This document shows, piece by piece, positions 14,993-29,848 of a DNA stretch of 64,000 bases. Origin of the DNA: Myxococcales bacterium (GTDB lineage: Bacteria > Myxococcota_A > Polyangia > Palsa-1104); contig PNAM01000079.1 of assembly GCA_003170275.1 (NCBI GenBank), forward strand, positions 79,147-143,146, given 5' to 3'. The notes under the pieces were generated by a model that was not told the DNA's origin, ran no database searches, and worked only from the letters and a program-made list of their open reading frames with translations. The first letter of the stretch is position 1. Each line of letters starts with the position of its first letter. The position numbers and the translations under genes are program-made.

Positions 14993-16993
14993 CTACCCGG
15001 ACGGAGTCGCCGGCTCGGCCAGCCGGAACTTCGCGGGATGCAGGGCCGGCGAACGCGCGACGAACATCGCGTGCAGCAGCTGAGCGCCGAGGACGAGCAT
15101 GAGGATCAGCTCGAGCCGAAGCCGCGTGATGTGGTGCGCGGGCGCGCGCGCGAGCTCAGCGAGCAGCCGTGCGACCACCTCGGGTGCGAACAGCCCGGCG
15201 TCGACGAGCGCCTGCCGCGAGAGCGCTTCGCTGACGAACGCCGGCGCGCCCGCCTCGAAGAACCAGGGCGCGATCGGCGTCATGAACGGCTGTTTGCGGC
15301 GGCGGCGGATCGAGCGCGGGAGCAGGTCCGCCACCGAGCGGCGCAGGATCGCCTTCTCGCGCAAGGCGCCCAGCTTCATCCACGGCGGCAAGGGGACCAC
15401 GTGCTCCACGACGCGATCGTCGAGGAACGGAACGCGTGCCTCCACCCCGTTGGCCATCGCCGAGCGATCGCTGATGACCAGGATCCAGGAGGGCAGCCGG
15501 GTCTCGAGCTCGAGCGCCAGCTGCGCGTCGAGCGGATCGAGATCGGCGACGTCGTCGCGCACCAGGGCGCCGAAGCCTGCGGGGGGCTCCGCGGCCGGAC
15601 GCACGCGCCGAACGTCGCCACCTGGCGACAGGAGCTCGGTGCGGGCCAGATCGAGGAGCTGCCACACGTCGTACCAGGGAGGATGGACGCCGCCGTGCGC
15701 GCGCGCGACCGCCTCGGTGGCGCCGGCGTCGCGCTCGATCGCGCGGGCGAGCCCCTCCGGTTGGCCGCTGAGCCGCGCGAACAGGCGAAACAAGAACGGC
15801 CTGGCGAAGCGCAATGGAGATCCATCGAGCGCACGGCGCAGCTTGGCCGCGCGAAACACGTCGTATCCGCCGAAGAGCTCGTCGGCGCCGTCCCCGGTGA
15901 GCGCTACCCGCACGCCCTCGGCGCGCTGGCGCTCCGACATCAGCATCCCGCCGATCGCGCCGGGCATCACCAGCGGGAGCTCGAGCTGCCAGATCATCTC
16001 GGGCAAGAGCTCGGCCGCGCGCCGGTCCAGCCGGACCTCGTGCCCGATGCCGCCGAGCGCCGCGCACATCGCGCGCGCGTGCTTCGACTCGTCGAACCTG
16101 GGATCGTCGAAGCTGATCGAGAACGTGGTCGGCGGCGCGCCGCTCACCTCCTTCGCCAGCGCGGCGACGGCGGACGAGTCGAGACCACCCGACAGCGCCG
16201 ACGCCACCGGCACGTCGGCGACCAGGTGCGTGCGGACGGCGTCGCGCAGCACCTCCCGGAGCCCGCCCGCCAGCTCGCGCGCGCTGCCGCGCCGATGCTC
16301 GCCGCGCGGCACGAACGGCGCGCGCCAGTAGCGCCGGGGCGTCTCGAGTCCGCGACCGGCGTGCGCGATCGCGACGTGCGCCGGCCGAAGCTCGAACAGG
16401 CCGGAGAACATCGTGCGTGGCGGGCAGGGGTAGCCGAGCGAGAACAGATCGTCGAGCGAATCACGGTCGATCGCGGCCGGCACCAGGCCCGAAGCGAGGA
16501 TCGCCTTGAGCTCGGAGGCGACCACCAGGTAGTCGCGCGTCTGCGCGAAGTACAGCGGCTTGATGCCGAGGCGATCGCGCGCCAAGAGGAGCGTGCGCGC
16601 CCGCGCGTCCCACAGGGCCAGCGCGAACATTCCGCGCAGCCGCTCGACGAGGGCCGCGCCGTGCTCCTCGTACAGATGGGGGATGAGCGACGTGTCGCAC
16701 GCGTCGGCTACCGCGTGGCCGCGTGCGGTGAGCTCGGCGCGCAGCTCGCCGTGGTTGTAGGTCTCGCCGTTGTAGACGCACGAGATCTGGCGCGTGCAGC
16801 CGAACACCGGCTGGTGGCCCCCGCGCGCATCGACGATCGCCAGGCGCACCGCCGCCAGCTGAACGTGCTCGTCGGCAAAGGTCCCCCACTCGTCCGGCCC
16901 GCGGTGCGTGATCGTCGCGGCCATGGTGCGCAGCACCGACCCGGGCGGCAGCGGTCGCTCACCGGCGCGGAGGATCGCGACGATGCCGCACAC
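14993..16993 (-). CDS. asnB: Glutamine-hydrolysing asparagine synthetase-type amidotransferase
   Basis: 666 residues. An N-terminal class II glutaminase (catalytic Cys2 in MCGIVAIL, then THRGPDEWG, YNGETYNHGELR) is followed by an ATP-pyrophosphatase synthetase domain (SGGLDSS, 268-274). Ammonia from glutamine is passed to an adenylated carboxylate to give an amide. Last gene of a tight four-gene operon, 3 bases after the GNAT stop. In that setting it may amidate a specialised acid rather than aspartate; that is inference. Confidence 0.9.
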   Translation of the reverse strand: MCGIVAILRAGERPLPPGSVLRTMAATITHRGPDEWGTFADEHVQLAAVRLAIVDARGGHQPVFGCTRQISCVYNGETYNHGELRAELTARGHAVADACDTSLIPHLYEEHGAALVERLRGMFALALWDARARTLLLARDRLGIKPLYFAQTRDYLVVASELKAILASGLVPAAIDRDSLDDLFSLGYPCPPRTMFSGLFELRPAHVAIAHAGRGLETPRRYWRAPFVPRGEHRRGSARELAGGLREVLRDAVRTHLVADVPVASALSGGLDSSAVAALAKEVSGAPPTTFSISFDDPRFDESKHARAMCAALGGIGHEVRLDRRAAELLPEMIWQLELPLVMPGAIGGMLMSERQRAEGVRVALTGDGADELFGGYDVFRAAKLRRALDGSPLRFARPFLFRLFARLSGQPEGLARAIERDAGATEAVARAHGGVHPPWYDVWQLLDLARTELLSPGGDVRRVRPAAEPPAGFGALVRDDVADLDPLDAQLALELETRLPSWILVISDRSAMANGVEARVPFLDDRVVEHVVPLPPWMKLGALREKAILRRSVADLLPRSIRRRRKQPFMTPIAPWFFEAGAPAFVSEALSRQALVDAGLFAPEVVARLLAELARAPAHHITRLRLELILMLVLGAQLLHAMFVARSPALHPAKFRLAEPATPSG

Positions 16994-16996
16994 GCG

Positions 16997-17896
16997 TCAG
17001 ATCTCGCTCGTCGCCAGATGCACCCACGGCGCCGGCCTCGGCGCGAACGGCCAGCGCAACAGGTAGACCGTGCAGCTCGCGCCAGCGCGAATTCCGTTCG
17101 CCGCGAGCCACCCGATCTGATCGACCAGACGCTCGTCGAGGGCGAAGCAGGCGGTCGTCTGCGCGTCGCCGATCGACTCGCCGCAGGCGCGCAGGTAGGC
17201 GCCGAGGTTGGGACGCCAGGCGCGCGGACCGAGCGGCAGATGCGTGAGCGGCCACGGCCGTCCGGTCGATTCCAGACGCAGGTCCTTGCAGCCCGCGGTC
17301 GACGTCACGCCGGGCGCGTCGTGCAGCGCGTCGGGGCTCAGATCGAGCCCACCCTCGACGACCGGCGGCGCGCCGGCCGGCTCGAGCTTCGCCAAGAGGC
17401 GCGGCTCGGTGAAGTAGACCGCCAGCCGCGCCGCCGGGCGGCCGAGGCGCATCGGCGTGATTCCTCGCGCCGCGCGCATGACGTCGCCGCGCGTGCCGCG
17501 CATCGCCGCGACGTAGACGATGCGCCACGAGGGCGTCGCCGGACGGAACGCCATGGCCAGCGCAGTCAGCAAATAGCGCCGGCTGAGCTTGCCGCCGCGA
17601 TAGGCGGGGGCGATCTTGTAGTCGGCGCCGTACAGCGTCCGCACGCGGCGCCCGCCGCTTTCGGCAAAGCGGTTGATGCCGGAAAAGATGCCGACCACCT
17701 GGTCACCGTCGAGCGCCATGAGAAAGTGCGCGTCGCCCATGCGCTCGAAGAAGGCCGCGTAGCGCGCACCATGATCGATGCGGAAGTGGTCGGCGCCGTC
17801 GGCGATCGGATAGCGGATCTCCGCTTCGAGCCGGGCCAAGCCAGCCTGGTAGGGCGCCAGCTCGTCGGAGAAGAGATGAAACAGGCGCACGCTCAC
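16997..17896 (-). CDS. GNAT-like N-acyltransferase
   Basis: 299 residues from a GTG that overlaps the stop of the upstream DUF3419 gene (GTGA). The centre, HFLMALDGDQVVGIFSGINR then APAYRGGKLSRRYL, matches the beta4-alpha3 region of GNAT acyltransferases where acyl-CoA binds. The C-terminal 130 residues have no clear match. It should move an acyl group to an amine made by its operon partners. The fold call is moderately sure; the substrate is unknown. Confidence 0.65.
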   Translation of the reverse strand: MSVRLFHLFSDELAPYQAGLARLEAEIRYPIADGADHFRIDHGARYAAFFERMGDAHFLMALDGDQVVGIFSGINRFAESGGRRVRTLYGADYKIAPAYRGGKLSRRYLLTALAMAFRPATPSWRIVYVAAMRGTRGDVMRAARGITPMRLGRPAARLAVYFTEPRLLAKLEPAGAPPVVEGGLDLSPDALHDAPGVTSTAGCKDLRLESTGRPWPLTHLPLGPRAWRPNLGAYLRACGESIGDAQTTACFALDERLVDQIGWLAANGIRAGASCTVYLLRWPFAPRPAPWVHLATSEI

Positions 17897-18834
17897 CGGC
17901 GGAACCCGACCAAGATGCGCTCGTAGAACAGGCTGCGGTCGCGCGCCAACAGCTCGGCGCCGAGCGCGGCGTCGAAGTGGAACGCCGGCGCGAAGAAGGC
18001 GCGCACGTCGCGGGTGTTGTTGAGCTGCCGGATGAGCACCGCCGCCCCCGGTCGCGCCGCCGCCGAGAGGCGCGCGCCCCAGTCGGCGACCAGCGCATCG
18101 TCGGACCAGTCGAAGATGTTGGAGAGGGAGTACAGCTCGAAGCGCTCGAGCGCCGGCACTGCGCCGAGCGCTCCCTCGACCAACTCGAGGGTCGGCTCGC
18201 GACGCGCGTGCACGTAGGCCGGCGCGTCTTCGGCGCGATAGGCGCCCAACAGCACATGCTGCAGGAACGGATTGCGCGGTCCATCGTCGGCCGAGAGTCC
18301 GCGTTCGAAGGCGCGCTGGAAATATCCCGGGTACGAGCCGGGCGTCGCGTGCTGCGTCGCTGCGCGCCCGAACATGGCGTGCAGCAGCGGATCGTTGAAC
18401 GCGATGGCGTAGGCGGCTGGCCAGTAGCGCGACGCCATCCACCGCTGCACCATCGTCCGCCGGTCGTAGGTGTCGTCGGAGAAGTAGCGCGCGAGCTCAT
18501 CGGGCGGCGCCACCAGCTCCTCGATCGCCGCGCGCAGGATGCGGAAGAGCGCCTCGAACTCGCCCTTCTGGTTGAGGCCGTCGGCGCGCGCGTCTCCGAC
18601 GTTGAGCCGCTCGAGCTCGTGGCGCGCCGCCGCCTGCGCCTTTTCGCGCACGTGCGCCAGCGCCGCGGGGTTGAGATCGAAGGCGGTGATGCGCAGCGAC
18701 GGAAATCGATGTGCCAGGGTGAGCGCGGTGCAGCCGCCCGATGCGACCAGCAGCGCTGCGCGCGCGCCGGTGCGCTCGATGAGCGCCGCCTCGAGCTCCG
18801 CATCTTCGCGGACCACCGCGAACTTGAGCGGCAT
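17893..18834 (-). CDS. DUF3419 protein, BtaA-like 3-amino-3-carboxypropyltransferase
   Basis: 313 residues. A SAM-binding Rossmann segment (LLVASGGCTALTLA, then ITAFDLNPAAL) is followed by the DUF3419 features FNDPLLHAMFG and LYSLSNIFDW near residue 240. BtaA of this family moves the 3-amino-3-carboxypropyl group of SAM to the hydroxyl of diacylglycerol, the first step of betaine lipid synthesis. No BtaB N-methyltransferase is nearby, so the product is probably not DGTS. It starts 2 bases after the di-iron gene and overlaps the GNAT gene. Confidence 0.8.
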   Translation of the reverse strand: MPLKFAVVREDAELEAALIERTGARAALLVASGGCTALTLAHRFPSLRITAFDLNPAALAHVREKAQAAARHELERLNVGDARADGLNQKGEFEALFRILRAAIEELVAPPDELARYFSDDTYDRRTMVQRWMASRYWPAAYAIAFNDPLLHAMFGRAATQHATPGSYPGYFQRAFERGLSADDGPRNPFLQHVLLGAYRAEDAPAYVHARREPTLELVEGALGAVPALERFELYSLSNIFDWSDDALVADWGARLSAAARPGAAVLIRQLNNTRDVRAFFAPAFHFDAALGAELLARDRSLFYERILVGFRR

Positions 18835-18836
18835 GT

Positions 18837-19574
18837 TCAGCGGGCGGCGTGAAGATCGAGGTACAGCGTCCAGAACCAATGCGCGCCGAGCGTCAGTCCG
18901 AGGGCCACCTGTTCGCGCGCGCTGCGCTCCGGCCACAGCGGGCGCGCCACGTCGAACAGATCGCGCGAGTGGGTCTCGTCGAGCACCTGGTGCACTTCGT
19001 AGTGGCGCTGGCTGCCGGCGGCGCACCAGCCGCGCTCGCCCACGGTGCCGGCGATCTGCGTCGAGATGCCGACGTAGAGGTGCTCGATCACGCCGAGCAG
19101 CGCCGCGCCCGCTTCGGGTCCGTGCATCAGACAAAACCCGAGCAGCGACTGGTTGAACGCCCGTACCGTCGTCGGGCAGCTGCGCTCGAGCTCCGCCGGC
19201 TGCGCGCCCATGGCACGCAGGTACTGCAAGAAGGTCGCCTTGTGACTGACGAGCAGGTTGCCGCGCCCGTGCTCCTCGGCGATGTTGTCGGCGATCGGCT
19301 GCCGCGTCTCGAGGCGCGGCATGCGCGCGAGCACCGCGGCCAGCGCCTGCGGGAACGCCTCGACGGCGAAGCGGAACGGCACCTGCGTGCGCCGGAAGTC
19401 GTCGCGCTTGGTCGAGTCCTTCGCCATCCACAGAAAATACGGATGGCGCGAAAAGTCGTAGCGCGCGGTGACGAGCTCGATCGCCGCCTCGATCGACGGC
19501 GCCTGCTGCAGCTCTTCCCGGCTCAGTTGCGGCTCGACGGAGAGCAGCTGGGGGGAGACGTCGAGACGTTGCAT
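18837..19574 (-). CDS. Haem-oxygenase-like di-iron protein (iron-containing redox enzyme family)
   Basis: 245 residues, all helical. Candidate metal ligands match the family pattern: Glu101 and His111 in EEHGRGNLLVSH, Glu164 in GVIEHLY, and His195-x3-Asp199-x2-His202 in HQVLDETH. Known members use O2 to oxidise amines, cleave C-C bonds or N-oxygenate amino acid derivatives (for example CADD, UndA, SznF). First gene of the operon with DUF3419, GNAT and AsnB genes. The substrate cannot be inferred from the sequence alone. Confidence 0.78.
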   Translation of the reverse strand: MQRLDVSPQLLSVEPQLSREELQQAPSIEAAIELVTARYDFSRHPYFLWMAKDSTKRDDFRRTQVPFRFAVEAFPQALAAVLARMPRLETRQPIADNIAEEHGRGNLLVSHKATFLQYLRAMGAQPAELERSCPTTVRAFNQSLLGFCLMHGPEAGAALLGVIEHLYVGISTQIAGTVGERGWCAAGSQRHYEVHQVLDETHSRDLFDVARPLWPERSAREQVALGLTLGAHWFWTLYLDLHAAR

Positions 19575-21671: not shown

Positions 21672-23668
21672 AGCCACTCGCCCAGCTTGGCGCGCAGCTC
21701 GGCGAGCACCTCGGGATGCGCGTCGGCGACATCGCGGCGCTGCTCGGGATCCGCGGCGAGGTCGAAGAGGCGCCAATGCACCCCATCTGGAGCGGGCTGA
21801 TACACCAGCTTCCAGCGCGGCGTGCGGATCGCGCGGACCTTGGCGTCCGTCGATGGGCCTTCGAAGCGCGGCTGCAGGAAGATGTCGCCGTCGTCGGCAG
21901 CCTCGGTCGAATGCCACAGGTCGGGATAGGGCAGTCGATCTCCGGCGCGGTAGCCCGGCCCGGACTCGAGCAGCCACAGTCCGCTCTCCTCGAACGAGCT
22001 CAGCTCGAGCGATTCGCGCGTCCCGTCGAGGAGTGGCGAGAGATCTACGCCGTCGCCCGCCGGCGCGGCCACGCCCATCAGCGCTCCGAGCGTAGGCGCG
22101 AGATCCACGTCGCGCACGATCCCGTCGACGTCGCGCGGCGCGTGCTTGCCGTCGGCGATCACCAGCGGAATGTGATTCGCCAGGTCGCCCCAGAGATGAT
22201 CGCCGTGGCCCATGCCGCGGCCGGGCACGTCGAAGAGATTCTCACCGTGATCGCCGAGCAGCACCACGATCGTGTGCTCGTCGACGCGCGCGAGCAGACG
22301 CGCGATCGCCGCGTCGACGCTCGCGACCGCGCCGTCGTACAGCGCTTGTACCTGGCGGGCTTCTTCGGGCGGCAGCACCGCCAGCTGCGGCAATGGCTGC
22401 TTGAGGTACCGGTAGGGTCCGCGATATCCCGCGTCGGCGAACTTGCGCCAGAACGGCGTCGGCGCGGCGTAGGGCGTGTGCGGCGCCGAAAAGAACACCG
22501 TGAGGAAGAACGGCGCTCCGGCGAACCGATCGAGCTGGGCCGCGGCGCGGTCGGCGAGCGCCATCGGATCTTCCAGCTCTGCGGTGATGCCGGTCGCCGG
22601 GAACAGGTGGCGCCCGAGCCGCGTGGCGGCATAGGGCAGCACGTTCGGGTGTGCGTTGAGGAGCTGCTCACCGACGATGGTGTCGAGGTTCATCAGCGGA
22701 ACGTCGACGGTGTCGAAGCCGATCGGCGTGCGCGAGAAGATCTCGCCGGCGAAGTCGGAGACCACCGCCGTCCGGTAGCCGGACGCGCGCAGCACCGACG
22801 GCAGCGACGCGCCGATCGCCAGCCGCGCGGCGGCTGGCGGGAACTCGTGGCGGATCCCGTGATGGCTGGGAAAGCGCCCGCTGAGCAGCGAGACGAACGA
22901 GGGGAAGGTGCGCGCCTGCGTGACGAAGGCTTCGCGGAAGCGCACGCCGCGAGCGGCCAGGCCGGCGAGCGTGGGAAAGCGCGCCGCTGCGTCGGGAGCG
23001 AACACGCGATCGGCCCGCAGGCTGTCGACCGCGAGCAGCAGCACGCTCGGCCGCGCGGTCGCAACCGGCTTGGTGGGACGCGCGGCGATCGCAGCCGCTG
23101 CGACGGCGACGGCAGGAACGCCCAGCGCGCCGAGGACGAGGATGGCGCGCCGCCGCAGCCACGCGCGCCCGCGCACGGAGACCACCAGCGGCGCGACGAA
23201 GGCAACCGCCAGCCCGCAGGCCAGCGCCACATCGAGCGTGTCCGTCGAGAGATGATCGGTCGCGAACACCATCGCGGTACGCCGAACGCCGCCGCGCTCG
23301 TAGAAATGCGCCGAGTAGAGCTGCGGGAATTGCGCCATCGAGCGCGCCAGGAACCAGCCGTGGCCGACGAGCGCGCCCAGCAGACCGCGCACGAACGCCC
23401 GACGTGGCGAGCGCCCGCGGGCCAGGTCCCAGGCGCGTCCGGACAGCGCAGCCAGGGCGCCGAATCCAGCGCATGCGCCGACCAGCACCGCCAGCATCAG
23501 CAGCTGCTGCGCGACGGCGTGGGCGCGCGCGCGCTCCAGCACCGCGGCGATCACGCGCGGATCGCGCAGGCCCATGAAGCCAACCTCGCCGCCGGCGAAG
23601 TCGAGCGCGAACAGCGCGCAGCCGACGAGCGCGCCCGCCGCCGGCCCGCTCGCGAGCATCCGTCTCAT
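21662..23668 (-). CDS. Membrane-anchored sulfatase/phosphoglycerol transferase-like protein
   Basis: 668 residues. About five membrane helices (1-205) carry a C-terminal alkaline-phosphatase-superfamily domain: VDSLRAD (metal-binding Asp), FPSFVSLLSGRFPSHHG, SAPHTPY and LLGDHGENL near residue 460 (second metal site). In sulfatases the nucleophile motif is C/S-x-P-x-R; here it reads TFPSF, so Thr may act instead, as in phosphoethanolamine and LTA-type transferases. Its ATG overlaps the stop of the cytochrome gene upstream (ATGA). Confidence 0.82.
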   Translation of the reverse strand: MRRMLASGPAAGALVGCALFALDFAGGEVGFMGLRDPRVIAAVLERARAHAVAQQLLMLAVLVGACAGFGALAALSGRAWDLARGRSPRRAFVRGLLGALVGHGWFLARSMAQFPQLYSAHFYERGGVRRTAMVFATDHLSTDTLDVALACGLAVAFVAPLVVSVRGRAWLRRRAILVLGALGVPAVAVAAAAIAARPTKPVATARPSVLLLAVDSLRADRVFAPDAAARFPTLAGLAARGVRFREAFVTQARTFPSFVSLLSGRFPSHHGIRHEFPPAAARLAIGASLPSVLRASGYRTAVVSDFAGEIFSRTPIGFDTVDVPLMNLDTIVGEQLLNAHPNVLPYAATRLGRHLFPATGITAELEDPMALADRAAAQLDRFAGAPFFLTVFFSAPHTPYAAPTPFWRKFADAGYRGPYRYLKQPLPQLAVLPPEEARQVQALYDGAVASVDAAIARLLARVDEHTIVVLLGDHGENLFDVPGRGMGHGDHLWGDLANHIPLVIADGKHAPRDVDGIVRDVDLAPTLGALMGVAAPAGDGVDLSPLLDGTRESLELSSFEESGLWLLESGPGYRAGDRLPYPDLWHSTEAADDGDIFLQPRFEGPSTDAKVRAIRTPRWKLVYQPAPDGVHWRLFDLAADPEQRRDVADAHPEVLAELRAKLGEWLQR

Positions 23669-25512
23669 CGCTTCACCGTACCCTTGAGCTCGCGCTCGAG
23701 GCGCTCGCGCACATCGGGCAGATGCAGACCGTCTCGCTCGTGCGGAAGAGCGATCCGCTCCAACAGCTCGACCAGCGCGAGCGCGTCGCGAAACTCCCCG
23801 CGACGGTGACGCAAGGTGATGAGGTGCACCAGGCCGGAGGTGGGCGGCTGCTGGTGCGCGAGCGTGTCGGCGAGGTCGCGCTCGAAGGCCGCGGCATCGA
23901 GCTGGCCCGGGTCGTTGACCATCGAGAACGTCTCCAGTCGCACGAACGGATGCGGATCCGCGAGGCCGAGCTCGATCCAACGCTTCCGCCCGCCGGCATC
24001 GTGATGATCGAGCGCGCGGATGGCGATCGAGCGGAGCTGCGGATCGCCGTCGCTGGCAAACGGCGCGACGCGCGGCACCACGCTCGCATCCGGCGGTTGG
24101 ATCACCAGCAGATCGAGCGCCGACGCGCGCAGGTACGCGCTCGGCTCATCGAGCAGGGCGAGCAGCCGCTGGGTCGCGCCGGGCGCCCGCTTGCGCGCGA
24201 GCGCGATGGTGCGCACCCACTCGCGCACGCCGGTCGCGCGCCGCTGGCCCCAGCGCTCGAGCGCCGCCAGCGCCCACTCGGGCGTTCGCTCGCGATGGCA
24301 GGTGGTGCACGCGTTGGGATTGCCGAGCTCGAGGGTCTCGCGCGGCCGCGGGATGGAGATCGAATGATCGGACGTGCGCTGCCGGCGCGTGTCGTCGTCG
24401 CCGATGAACGAATAGGCCATGTGGCAATCGACGCAGCGGATCGCCGGCGCCATGGGATGATGCGAGTGGCGAATCGCCGCAGCCGGCGCCAGGCGATCGC
24501 GATGGCAGATCGTGCACTGCCGGTTCGACTCCGCGCCGGTCGCCGGCTCACCGACGAAGTCGCGCGCGGTGAGGCCGTGCGGCTCGTGGCAGCCCTTGCA
24601 GGTGAGCGCTCCGCCGCGGAAGCACGCGCTCAGCACGTGTCCGGGGTATTGGTAGCTCGTCAAGCGCTGCGTGCCGTCGGGGCGGAGCGCGTCGTGGATC
24701 AGGCTGGTGACGAAGATGTCGGGCAGCCCGTCGGGCGCGCGCGGAAATACGTAGGGCTTGAGCTGAAAGCCGTGGCACTGCCCGCACACGCGCGCCTCCT
24801 CGCGACCGCCGAGCGGACGCAAATCGCGGAGACTGTCGTCGCTGCGCCCGGCGCGCCGGCGGCGGATGTGCTCCACAGCGGCGCCGTGGCAGCTCTCGCA
24901 GTCGATGCGCAGATCGGCCCAGCGCGTCTCGACCGGAGCGGTGGTGCGATAGGCCTGGCTCAGGTGGCAGGAGAAGCAGCCGCCGGTCATGTCGAAGCCG
25001 CCCCAGTAGCCCTTGAGGTCGCGGTCGAGGCCGCCGCCCTGGTAGAGCGAGGTGGGAATCCATTCGTTGGTTCTGGTGCACCAGATGATCGGCAGCAGGC
25101 TGAACGCGCCGTCGTCCGCGCGCGCGACGTAGAGCTGGTGCTGGCGGCCCGACGCGATCACCAGATCGACCTTGCGTCGTTCGACGAAGCCGCGCGCCGA
25201 GCGCATCTCCATGAAGTAGCCGTCGGGCGTCAGCGACGGTGTGACCGCGCCATCGGCCAACGCGACCGGCGCGCCGGCGAACGGCGCGAGCACCGACTGC
25301 GACGACGCCGGCGCCATCGCGCGTCCGTGCGGCGAGCGCGCCCAGGCATCGACGATCTTCCCGTGGCACTCCGCGCACGCCGCGGCGCCGGCCAGCTCGG
25401 CCACCGGCACCGACGTAGGCAGCGTCGCCGGCAGCGTCGCGGCAAGGGGCGCCTCCTTGGGTGGCGGCTTCGCGCAGCCCGCAGCGAGCAGAACGAAGAA
25501 CAGGAGTCGCAT
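23665..25512 (-). CDS. Octahaem cytochrome c lipoprotein with HEAT-like C-terminus
   Basis: 615 residues. Lipoprotein signal with LLAAGC (Cys 13). Eight CXXCH motifs are visible: CAECH, CFSCH, CESCH, CGQCH, CKGCH, CTICH, CVDCH and CTTCH, spread over residues 45-410. The order resembles cytochrome c554-type folds. From about residue 420 the protein becomes a helical HEAT/TPR-like array (ALERWGQRRATGV, LLALLDEPSAYLRASALDLL). It should sit in the periplasm or on the outer membrane and carry electrons. Co-transcribed with the membrane sulfatase-fold gene. Confidence 0.9.
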   Translation of the reverse strand: MRLLFFVLLAAGCAKPPPKEAPLAATLPATLPTSVPVAELAGAAACAECHGKIVDAWARSPHGRAMAPASSQSVLAPFAGAPVALADGAVTPSLTPDGYFMEMRSARGFVERRKVDLVIASGRQHQLYVARADDGAFSLLPIIWCTRTNEWIPTSLYQGGGLDRDLKGYWGGFDMTGGCFSCHLSQAYRTTAPVETRWADLRIDCESCHGAAVEHIRRRRAGRSDDSLRDLRPLGGREEARVCGQCHGFQLKPYVFPRAPDGLPDIFVTSLIHDALRPDGTQRLTSYQYPGHVLSACFRGGALTCKGCHEPHGLTARDFVGEPATGAESNRQCTICHRDRLAPAAAIRHSHHPMAPAIRCVDCHMAYSFIGDDDTRRQRTSDHSISIPRPRETLELGNPNACTTCHRERTPEWALAALERWGQRRATGVREWVRTIALARKRAPGATQRLLALLDEPSAYLRASALDLLVIQPPDASVVPRVAPFASDGDPQLRSIAIRALDHHDAGGRKRWIELGLADPHPFVRLETFSMVNDPGQLDAAAFERDLADTLAHQQPPTSGLVHLITLRHRRGEFRDALALVELLERIALPHERDGLHLPDVRERLERELKGTVKR

Positions 25513-27898: not shown

Positions 27899-29848
27899 TC
27901 AGCGCCAGGCGGGCGGCAGCCACTGCGTTGCATCGCTCAAGTGACGGCCCTGCTTGGCGACGAAGTACGCACGCGCTCGCGCGATCTCGTCGCCGCGCGC
28001 CTGATCTCCCGAGGCAGCGTAGTTGGCGGATAGCTTTTCGAGCACCCACGCATCGCCCGGCGAGCTGCGACGGGCCGCTTCCAGGCGCTCGATCGCCTGC
28101 GCGCGTTTTCCCGCACGCAGCGCCAGCGCCGCCAGCCCGACCTGCGCCGCTCCCGCCATCGCCTTCTCGGCCACCGCGCGCTCGAACAGCACGCGCGCCT
28201 CGTCGACCTGTCCGCGGCGGAACAGGAAGACGCCTTTCGCTTCGAGCGCGCTCGGGTTCCCGGGATCGAGCGCGAGCGCCCGATCGAGCGCGCGCTGCGC
28301 CTCCGCGGCGTCGTCGTCAAGCGTGCGGCGCGCGTACTCGACCAGCGCCGCGCTCCCGTCGGGCTGGGCGCGCAACATAGCGACGAGCGCCGCGAGCGCG
28401 CGGGGCGAATCGTGCAGCTGGTCGAACTGCATCGTCAGCCACTGGTACAGCTTCGGCACCGCTGGCCGCGACGGCAGCACGCCCGCGATCCGACGCGCCG
28501 CCTCGTCTCGCTGGCCTTCGCCCGCCAGCGCCAGCGCCTCGAGCGCCGGCATCTCGGAGCCGGCGACCGGCTCGCCGACGAACGCCGACCACGACTGAAG
28601 ACGCGCCGTCTTCTCCTCCGGTCCCGGCTTGACGGGCGGTGGCCGTCGCTGAATGAAGTGGTCGGTCACGATCACCAGCGGCAGCATCGAGGTCGGTCCC
28701 GCGCGCATGTGGCAGCGAACGCAGTGGCCGTCCTCCTTCGCCTGCTCCGCCTTCGGCGCCGAGCAGCGCTTGTCGCGGTGGCACGCCTCGCACTTTTGGT
28801 CCCACCATGCCGGCGGCTCGTCGCGGGAGCTCACGTGCGGGTCGTGGCAGCTGGTGCAGGTGAGCTTCTTTGATGAGCCGCGCCAGCAAGCGCTACGCAC
28901 CATGCGGTCGGAATGAGCGACCAGGTAGAAGCGATCCGACTCGGGCGTCTCGGCGAGGAAATTCACTCGAAACGCGTCCAGCGGCTCGCCAGGCCGGTAG
29001 CTGAACTCGTGCCGACCCACGCGCGCCTGCGACCGCTCCTGCAAGTGGCATTGCGTGCACACGTCGAGCTGCCTGAGTGGCGAGAGGCGCGACGGGTTGA
29101 CGATGTCTTCGCCCCTGAGCGTCTCGAGATGGCGCGCGCCCGGCCCGTGGCATCGCTCACAGCCGACCCCCGCCGGCATCGCGCCGACGAACACGTCGTC
29201 GCTGCCGGCCAAGCGTCGCGGATAGTCCGAATGGCACGAGATGCAGAACGTGTCGAGCGAACGGCCGAACCGGAAGTTGCCGCCCGAGGCGCCCGGGTCG
29301 AGGTCCCAGCGCCCGAGCTTGGCGTAGTAGTCGATGGGGAACTGATAGAAGCGCTCGCCCTTGCGCGAGTAGAACGACATGCCGTAACTACCCGCGCTCA
29401 GCGAGTGCGTGACCGGCTCGCTGATGGAGTGCACCGGCTTCCCGTCGTCACCGACGAGAAACTCTTCGATGAGGTAGCGCCCGTTCTTGCGCACCGGCCG
29501 GTAGCGCAGCCCGGAGCCCGCATGCAGCACCGAGGTTCCCGCGGCCGCGTCGAAGATGCCGGCCAGCCAGCGCGGATCCAGCGACTCGATTGGCCGCAAC
29601 CCGGTGGACGCCATCGAGTGCTTCGCGTAGCTCGCAAATATCTTCTTGTGGCACGGCTGGCACGCCGCCGAGCCGACGTAGCCCGGCTCGGCGAGCCCGC
29701 CTTCCGGGGTCGACGGCAGCGGCCGGCTCCAGTCGAGCGGTGTCGAGTCCCAGCGGATCGACGCGAGCGGATCCGGGTGTGCAGTCGGCGCCAGCCGGCG
29801 CTCACAAGCAAACAGAGAGAGAGAGAGAAGCAGCACGGCCCGCAGCAC
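27899..29848 (-). CDS. Heptahaem cytochrome c lipoprotein with TPR C-terminus
   Basis: 649 residues. The signal has the lipobox LSLFAC (Cys 15). Seven CXXCH motifs (CQPCH, CISCH, CERCH, CTQCH, CTSCH, CEACH, CVRCH) lie in residues 60-385. SAGSYGMSFYSRKGERFYQF is a segment seen in cytochrome c554-type proteins. The last 200 residues are TPR repeats (ALDRALALDPGNPSALEAKG, VFLFRRGQVDEARVLFERAV). Similar plan to the octahaem protein 2 kb away, but too different to be a recent copy. Probable electron carrier in the periplasm or at the cell surface. Confidence 0.9.
   Translation of the reverse strand: MLRAVLLLSLSLFACERRLAPTAHPDPLASIRWDSTPLDWSRPLPSTPEGGLAEPGYVGSAACQPCHKKIFASYAKHSMASTGLRPIESLDPRWLAGIFDAAAGTSVLHAGSGLRYRPVRKNGRYLIEEFLVGDDGKPVHSISEPVTHSLSAGSYGMSFYSRKGERFYQFPIDYYAKLGRWDLDPGASGGNFRFGRSLDTFCISCHSDYPRRLAGSDDVFVGAMPAGVGCERCHGPGARHLETLRGEDIVNPSRLSPLRQLDVCTQCHLQERSQARVGRHEFSYRPGEPLDAFRVNFLAETPESDRFYLVAHSDRMVRSACWRGSSKKLTCTSCHDPHVSSRDEPPAWWDQKCEACHRDKRCSAPKAEQAKEDGHCVRCHMRAGPTSMLPLVIVTDHFIQRRPPPVKPGPEEKTARLQSWSAFVGEPVAGSEMPALEALALAGEGQRDEAARRIAGVLPSRPAVPKLYQWLTMQFDQLHDSPRALAALVAMLRAQPDGSAALVEYARRTLDDDAAEAQRALDRALALDPGNPSALEAKGVFLFRRGQVDEARVLFERAVAEKAMAGAAQVGLAALALRAGKRAQAIERLEAARRSSPGDAWVLEKLSANYAASGDQARGDEIARARAYFVAKQGRHLSDATQWLPPAWR

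Follow-up and report, generated by a model that had tools for sequence, protein, structure and literature searches.

Among the enzymes of the DUF3419 family, BtaA and Bta1 of betaine lipid synthesis are the characterised members. The haem-oxygenase-like di-iron (HDO) superfamily, which includes CADD, HrmI and BesC-type proteins, offers a second point of reference; HrmI and 4-chloro-allylglycine synthase act on amino acids. A third is eukaryotic N-myristoyltransferase (NMT), a double-GNAT enzyme that acylates proteins with fatty acids, in human cells among others. The C-terminal residue of human NMT1 is Gln496, and its carboxylate is named as the catalytic base in a passage of PMC7048800; a passage of a 2016 review (PMC4964394) calls such catalysis unique to NMT among GNATs. 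Known bacterial N-acyltransferases for aminolipids (ornithine, glutamine and glycine lipids) have the PF13444 domain in common, according to the relevant passage of PMC11631085. We have analysed a 64,000-nucleotide stretch (the window) of contig PNAM01000079.1, from an 8.17 Mb assembly of a Myxococcales bacterium, in which a minus-strand locus at 14993-19574 holds four tightly packed genes in the order HDO, DUF3419, GNAT and AsnB, the last encoding an AsnB-type amidotransferase.

A conserved DUF3419-GNAT-HDO module

The DUF3419, GNAT and HDO genes are a conserved module, the core of which is this trio and not the quartet. When 377 genomes sampled from the window's phylum were searched, the profile of each of the three proteins selected one and the same set of 22, the window's own included, with bit scores of 78-454 (GNAT), 271-537 (DUF3419) and 281-396 (HDO); a marginal GNAT match in genome G316 (26 bits) was dropped before counting. 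Outside these genomes the next-best scores were at most 103 bits for DUF3419 and 158 bits for HDO. Since the same genomes carry all three genes, the gene set is not due to chance. These searches scored six or seven candidates per genome (three for AsnB), and second copies may escape. A search of named genomes with the DUF3419 protein, which recovered close relatives only, gave 15 loci, all with GNAT and HDO nearby; by title, 11 are myxobacterial, one is from Deltaproteobacteria, two are 'uncultured proteobacterium' and one is 'Comamonas'.

In all, 33 distinct trio loci were collected, four contigs met twice, as judged by identical lengths, being counted once. The three genes lie within 2.4 to 4.4 kb in 32 of them; in the 33rd, from genome G414, the trio is split over two contigs whose ends share the same GNAT stretch. 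Gene order is DUF3419-GNAT-HDO in 24 loci, DUF3419-HDO-GNAT in six distant loci and HDO-DUF3419-GNAT in the window, and the HDO gene is divergent in locus L020. That the trio is kept together despite this reshuffling argues for a joint function. The control comprised 20 of the 21 loci of ordinary DUF3419 genes (that of G424 was left out): HDO was found in none and a weak GNAT match (28 bits) in one, several of the contigs being short. The window's DUF3419 gave no match at E ≤ 1e-5 in a plasmid search; the same search with the GNAT of locus L017 gave one Mycobacterium match, covering 25%.

Our coordinates agree with those of an earlier reading made from the sequence only, as do the junctions: 2 bases between HDO and DUF3419, a 4-base GTGA overlap between DUF3419 and GNAT, and 3 bases between GNAT and AsnB (Table 1). 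That sequence-only reading took the four genes as one set and proposed that the quartet be sought in relatives. The set is indeed conserved, but AsnB is an optional part of it, standing beside the trio in 2 of 33 loci; the full quartet recurs in one other genome, G414, and the reading thereby withstands the refutation it had set itself, a quartet without a counterpart in any relative.

Table 1. Genes of the four-gene locus (window coordinates).
Feature	Coordinates	Strand	Remarks
HDO-family protein (PF14518), divergent from the HDOs of other trio loci	18837..19574	-	245 aa; E101, H111, E164, H195, D199, H202
DUF3419 (BtaA-like) SAM-dependent protein of the short clade; predicted 3-amino-3-carboxypropyl transferase	17893..18834	-	313 aa
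Double-GNAT, N-myristoyltransferase-like protein; predicted N-acyltransferase	16997..17896	-	299 aa; C-terminus ...TSEI
AsnB-type glutamine-dependent amidotransferase, optional fourth part	14993..16993	-	666 aa; N-terminus (M)CGIV

The proteins of the trio

Three of the four family assignments of the sequence-only reading are borne out by Pfam matches above the cut-off: HDO (Haem_oxygenas_2, 63.6 vs 28.9 bits), DUF3419 (PF11899, 60.1 vs 28.2) and AsnB (Asn_synthase, 278.5 vs 21). The fourth, GNAT, is upheld through its family members and the fold of its model. Taken alone, the window GNAT is sub-threshold (16.0 vs 20.7); PF00583 is matched at E ≤ 0.1 by 23 of 27 aligned GNAT members. An AlphaFold2 model (16 sequences, pLDDT 86) has a GNAT-type fold. 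Its best Foldseek matches are NMTs, many entries of which fill the lists. With VIA-align, residues 1-299 of the model are superposed on residues 154-496 of human NMT1 (5o6j_B; Z 16.7, root-mean-square deviation (rmsd) 3.6, 251 aligned), and the two C-termini coincide. Ile is the last residue in 31 of 32 trio GNAT copies, 25 of these ending in TSEI or SSEI, and the exception (L064) runs off its contig; the GNAT of L057 likewise ends in TSEI. This C-terminus is conserved even in distant loci, in which the GNAT is 26 to 32% identical to the window protein. An invariable Ile at the end of every complete copy would fit a C-terminal carboxylate that serves as catalytic base, a role that we predict for it.

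The trio GNAT thus resembles eukaryotic NMT in its full-length double-GNAT fold and in a constant last residue where NMT has its catalytic C-terminus; it differs in being bacterial, in giving no match to the NMT profile and in lacking the part before residue 154 of human NMT1. The earlier proposal that the GNAT acylates amines is retained as to the acyltransferase role and modified as to the fold, which is NMT-like and makes fatty N-acylation the better guess. PF13444 is not among the five Pfam families that match the 27 GNAT members, and no PF13444 enzyme was shown in the window's own genome, an absence that speaks for the aminolipid reading of the trio. The trio would resemble bacterial aminolipid synthesis in its proposed product, an N-acylated amino-acid lipid; set against what the passage of PMC11631085 describes, it differs in a GNAT without a PF13444 match and in an amino acid that would come from S-adenosylmethionine (SAM).

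The DUF3419 proteins of the trio share the BtaA family and a predicted SAM-binding fold with the betaine lipid enzymes. They differ in forming a separate short clade, at least 168 bits from the next DUF3419s of the phylum (270.9 vs 102.5), in having constant GNAT and HDO partners, and in having no N-methyltransferase partner seen. Behind the SAM-binding part, a central stretch of some 45 residues is missing from seven aligned trio proteins and present in 17 of 20 ordinary DUF3419s (by eye), so that transfer to diacylglycerol cannot be assumed. The sequence-only reading was right about the BtaA-like family; the acceptor of BtaA may not carry over to the short clade. The predicted model (pLDDT 91) has a class I SAM-enzyme fold, of a kind common to methyl and aminocarboxypropyl transfer (best Z 12.3, rmsd 2.8, 163 residues). 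By analogy with BtaA we predict that the protein transfers the 3-amino-3-carboxypropyl group of SAM.

It may instead be an ordinary methyltransferase or catalyse some other SAM reaction, in which case no homoserine-type unit is made and the amine on which the GNAT and HDO work is another one. The best structural matches of the model are methyltransferases, no Foldseek match reaches E ≤ 0.001, and nicotianamine synthase, an aminocarboxypropyl transferase, appears weakly at E 0.018. A sequence search at E ≤ 1 gave no solved relative of the clade, and the clade lacks the segment common in ordinary DUF3419s. We nevertheless consider this alternative rather improbable: the match to a family with BtaA and Bta1 as its characterised members is above the cut-off, and a class I fold would serve either reaction. 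Synthesis of the ordinary betaine lipid DGTS, for which membership of the BtaA family speaks, was rejected as very improbable indeed. No BtaB-type N-methyltransferase recurs beside the trio across genera among the neighbour clusters identified (not every neighbour was identified), the trio clade stands apart from ordinary DUF3419s, and an N-acyltransferase partner would be expected to block trimethylation. We note that the ordinary DUF3419s of the phylum (L099-L118) are themselves diverse: that of L108 lies within an open frame of 779 codons, and those of L115 and L116 are without part of the central region.

The six dimetal ligands proposed earlier for the HDO (Table 1) are invariant in all 27 aligned HDOs. 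In a comparison with solved structures, the HDO profile finds 1rcw at E 7.4e-13 and a further four sequences at E ≤ 0.001; the solved sequence relatives are CADD, another 4-aminobenzoate synthase, HrmI and 4-chloro-allylglycine synthase. CADD acts on its own protein and its sacrificed residue is Tyr27, as stated in a passage of PMC13108848. The column aligned with this residue holds Phe, Leu, Val or Ile in 27 of 27 trio HDOs (by eye), a nearly invariant Tyr standing one residue before it. At the column of Lys152, which we take to be the other sacrificed residue of CADD, the HDO consensus is Leu. Because neither residue is seen at its aligned position, the identity of a CADD-type p-aminobenzoate synthase was rejected. 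The trio HDO resembles its superfamily in the six metal ligands and in sequence similarity to solved members, and differs in its gene partners and in these self-sacrifice positions.

AsnB, lipid-type neighbours and the proposed pathway

The window AsnB matches TIGR01536 with 426 bits (cut-off 267) and has Cys directly after the start, as in asparagine synthase (glutamine-hydrolysing). As in the N-acetylglutaminylglutamine amide and XrtA-system clusters, an AsnB-type amidotransferase stands beside a GNAT, but the scores of the window protein fall far under the curated cut-offs of TIGR03104 (310 of 570 bits) and TIGR03108 (394 of 817 bits). The AsnB of G414 is 61% identical to it over 647 residues and lies in the order GNAT-HDO-AsnB, followed by a polysaccharide deacetylase. 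Close AsnBs (E ≤ 1e-120) occur in 5 of 377 genomes, namely those of the window and G414 and three of another family; other AsnB-type matches in the window's genome are 27 to 44% identical. In the three genomes of the other family an MMPL transporter is adjacent in every case and a FeeM-type N-acyl amino acid synthase in two, the third contig ending inside MMPL. On these few cases, the AsnB subfamily appears tied to N-acyl amino acid chemistry. The loci concerned (L170, 6641-11857, in G197; L172, 1662-6867, in G144; L169 in G407) may represent an N-acyl amino acid amide cluster.

Next to the trio in 10 of 33 loci, a lower bound given the contig ends, stand genes for a fatty acid desaturase (PF00487) and a PAP2_3 protein (PF14378), in two arrangements. 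Both are divergent from the trio in the 'Comamonas' record and in eight loci with Myxococcaceae-type titles, nine in all; in L059 they lie in line with it, with 4-base end overlaps. The 'Comamonas' record (L015, BNCN01000001.1, titled Comamonas sp. KCTC 72670) is probably a mislabelled myxobacterium: its trio proteins fall within the Myxococcus/Pyxidicoccus group in trees, and its desaturase and PAP2 neighbours match those of that group.

A SAM-derived unit, an NMT-shaped N-acyltransferase, nearby lipid-type enzymes and an optional amidotransferase together point to an N-acylated aminolipid. In the pathway that we propose, the DUF3419 enzyme would transfer the 3-amino-3-carboxypropyl group of SAM to an acceptor hydroxyl, probably of a lipid alcohol; the resulting homoserine-type ether would have its alpha-amine free. 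The NMT-shaped GNAT would place a fatty acyl group on that amine, using its own C-terminal carboxylate as base. The HDO, with its dimetal site and O2, would oxidise the amino-acid part or a chain, early or late in the order; this di-iron step is the least certain part of the pathway. In this genome and one relative, AsnB would convert the carboxylate to an amide, and the linked desaturase and PAP2-type enzyme, where present, would supply or finish the lipid part. We judge the chances about even that the trio makes up a conserved route to an N-acylated amino-acid lipid, with its reactions, their order and the product all put forward by inference. The product, on our best reading, is an aminolipid with an aminocarboxypropyl (homoserine-type) unit that is N-acylated and oxidised and, in this organism, also amidated. 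A homoserine-derived, amidated and acylated product other than DGTS had been suggested from the sequence; the conserved set, with no recurring N-methyltransferase seen, lends this partial support, and the homoserine ether, the oxidation and the amidation are still conjectural.

Several observations weigh against a lipid pathway of this kind. The substrates of the close solved relatives of the HDO are amino acids or the protein itself rather than lipids. The NMT likeness of the GNAT is one of predicted structure only; besides the missing NMT profile match, only GNAT-type Pfam families match any of the 27 members (E ≤ 0.1). Other double-GNAT enzymes also match the model in Foldseek (9emd, a histidine acetyltransferase with a small substrate, and 4my3), and the acyl group could be short. 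The window has no linked desaturase or PAP2, its genome matching a desaturase weakly (34 bits) and containing a single PAP2_3 that is unlinked (133 bits), and 22 further loci are without the linked pair as far as their contigs reach. Distances over 27 loci correlate for all three protein pairs (0 of 2000 permutations as high), but in the 21 main-clade loci those of DUF3419 and HDO are uncorrelated (r -0.03; 1090 of 2000 permutations) and those of GNAT and HDO weakly correlated (r 0.38; 51 of 2000). The HDO of the window is one cause of this.

Much of this would suit a small non-lipid natural product, in which the DUF3419 enzyme uses the aminocarboxypropyl group to alkylate a small alcohol or amine, the HDO N-oxygenates or desaturates the amino acid or cleaves a C-C bond in it, and a short acyl group comes from the GNAT; one example would be a hydroxamate, formed when N-oxidation is followed by N-acylation. 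HrmI and 4-chloro-allylglycine synthase among the nearest solved HDOs, the small-substrate GNAT matches and the 23 of 33 loci without a linked desaturase or PAP2 all favour it. Two lipid-type genes are nonetheless joined to the trio in two arrangements, the GNAT has an NMT-like fold with coinciding C-termini, and relatives of the AsnB stand beside MMPL and FeeM. We regard the small non-lipid product as unlikely, though it deserves to be kept in mind.

Returning to the aminolipid, among the titles and abstract starts listed in searches of the open-licence PubMed Central literature we found no description of a DUF3419-GNAT-HDO gene set. The module is real and conserved, and a new lipid pathway, with the chemistry predicted here, is plausible. 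More tentatively, myxobacteria and their relatives may make an undescribed lipid class with an O-linked homoserine-type unit, N-acylation by an NMT-fold enzyme through its C-terminal carboxylate, and dimetal oxidation, some lineages amidating the product and at least one apparently having swapped its oxidase. Predatory soil bacteria would then have a further lipid class, one free of phosphorus; a di-iron family met chiefly in amino-acid natural products would take on a role related to lipids, and acyl transfer of the NMT type would extend to bacteria. The proposal is directly testable: the module has just three genes (about 2.5 kb), it is found in named cultured strains such as Myxococcus eversor and Pyxidicoccus caerfyrddinensis, and its product is expected to give a clear signature in mass spectrometry.

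The window locus as a variant and other neighbours

The DUF3419 and GNAT proteins of the window are typical, with mean identities of 58% and 47% to other main-clade members; its HDO is atypical (37% vs a median of 57%). This HDO is best matched, at 174-179 bits, by a stand-alone HDO that three genomes of genus g88 carry, the best trio HDO scoring 163. In the HDO tree it falls outside the other 25 trio HDOs used (100/100), and its grouping with the main clade was rejected (p 2.3e-5). The first HDO tree was disturbed by very long branches; later ones were made without five distant rows and L059, and with two of the three g88 sequences shortened, the third having been trimmed to its match beforehand. 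It is the HDO test that carries the incongruence, because neither the DUF3419 data (p 0.157) nor the GNAT data (p 0.475) reject a grouping of the window with the six distant loci. In G414 the HDO gene stands between those of GNAT and AsnB, and in the window it comes first. Most simply, the ancestral operon would have been of the G414 type, its HDO then being lost and another acquired; alternatively, the window HDO may have evolved fast and been relocated. The g88 stand-alone HDO (L163, 8686-9831; L164, 8735-9880), from genomes of 12.7-13.4 Mb, occurs without the trio and has 382 residues, with a C-terminal extension that gives no Pfam match at E ≤ 0.01, and a glutathione S-transferase-type gene is adjacent.

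Other genes border the trio in particular lineages. In genus g82, a flavin amine oxidase-type gene (L055, 10094-11866; L056, 5378-6991; Pfam on one) overlaps the DUF3419 start by 4 bases in each of the two genomes and may provide an extra oxidation step. Three loci of a single genus have an adjacent CMAS-type gene (Pfam on one; some neighbour clusters of that genus were not identified). In the window, the gene upstream of HDO matches PMT_2 and ends 92 bases before the HDO start. Two minus-strand genes near the operon, at 23665-25512 and 27899-29848 (615 and 649 codons), are similar to each other and constitute a paralogous pair.

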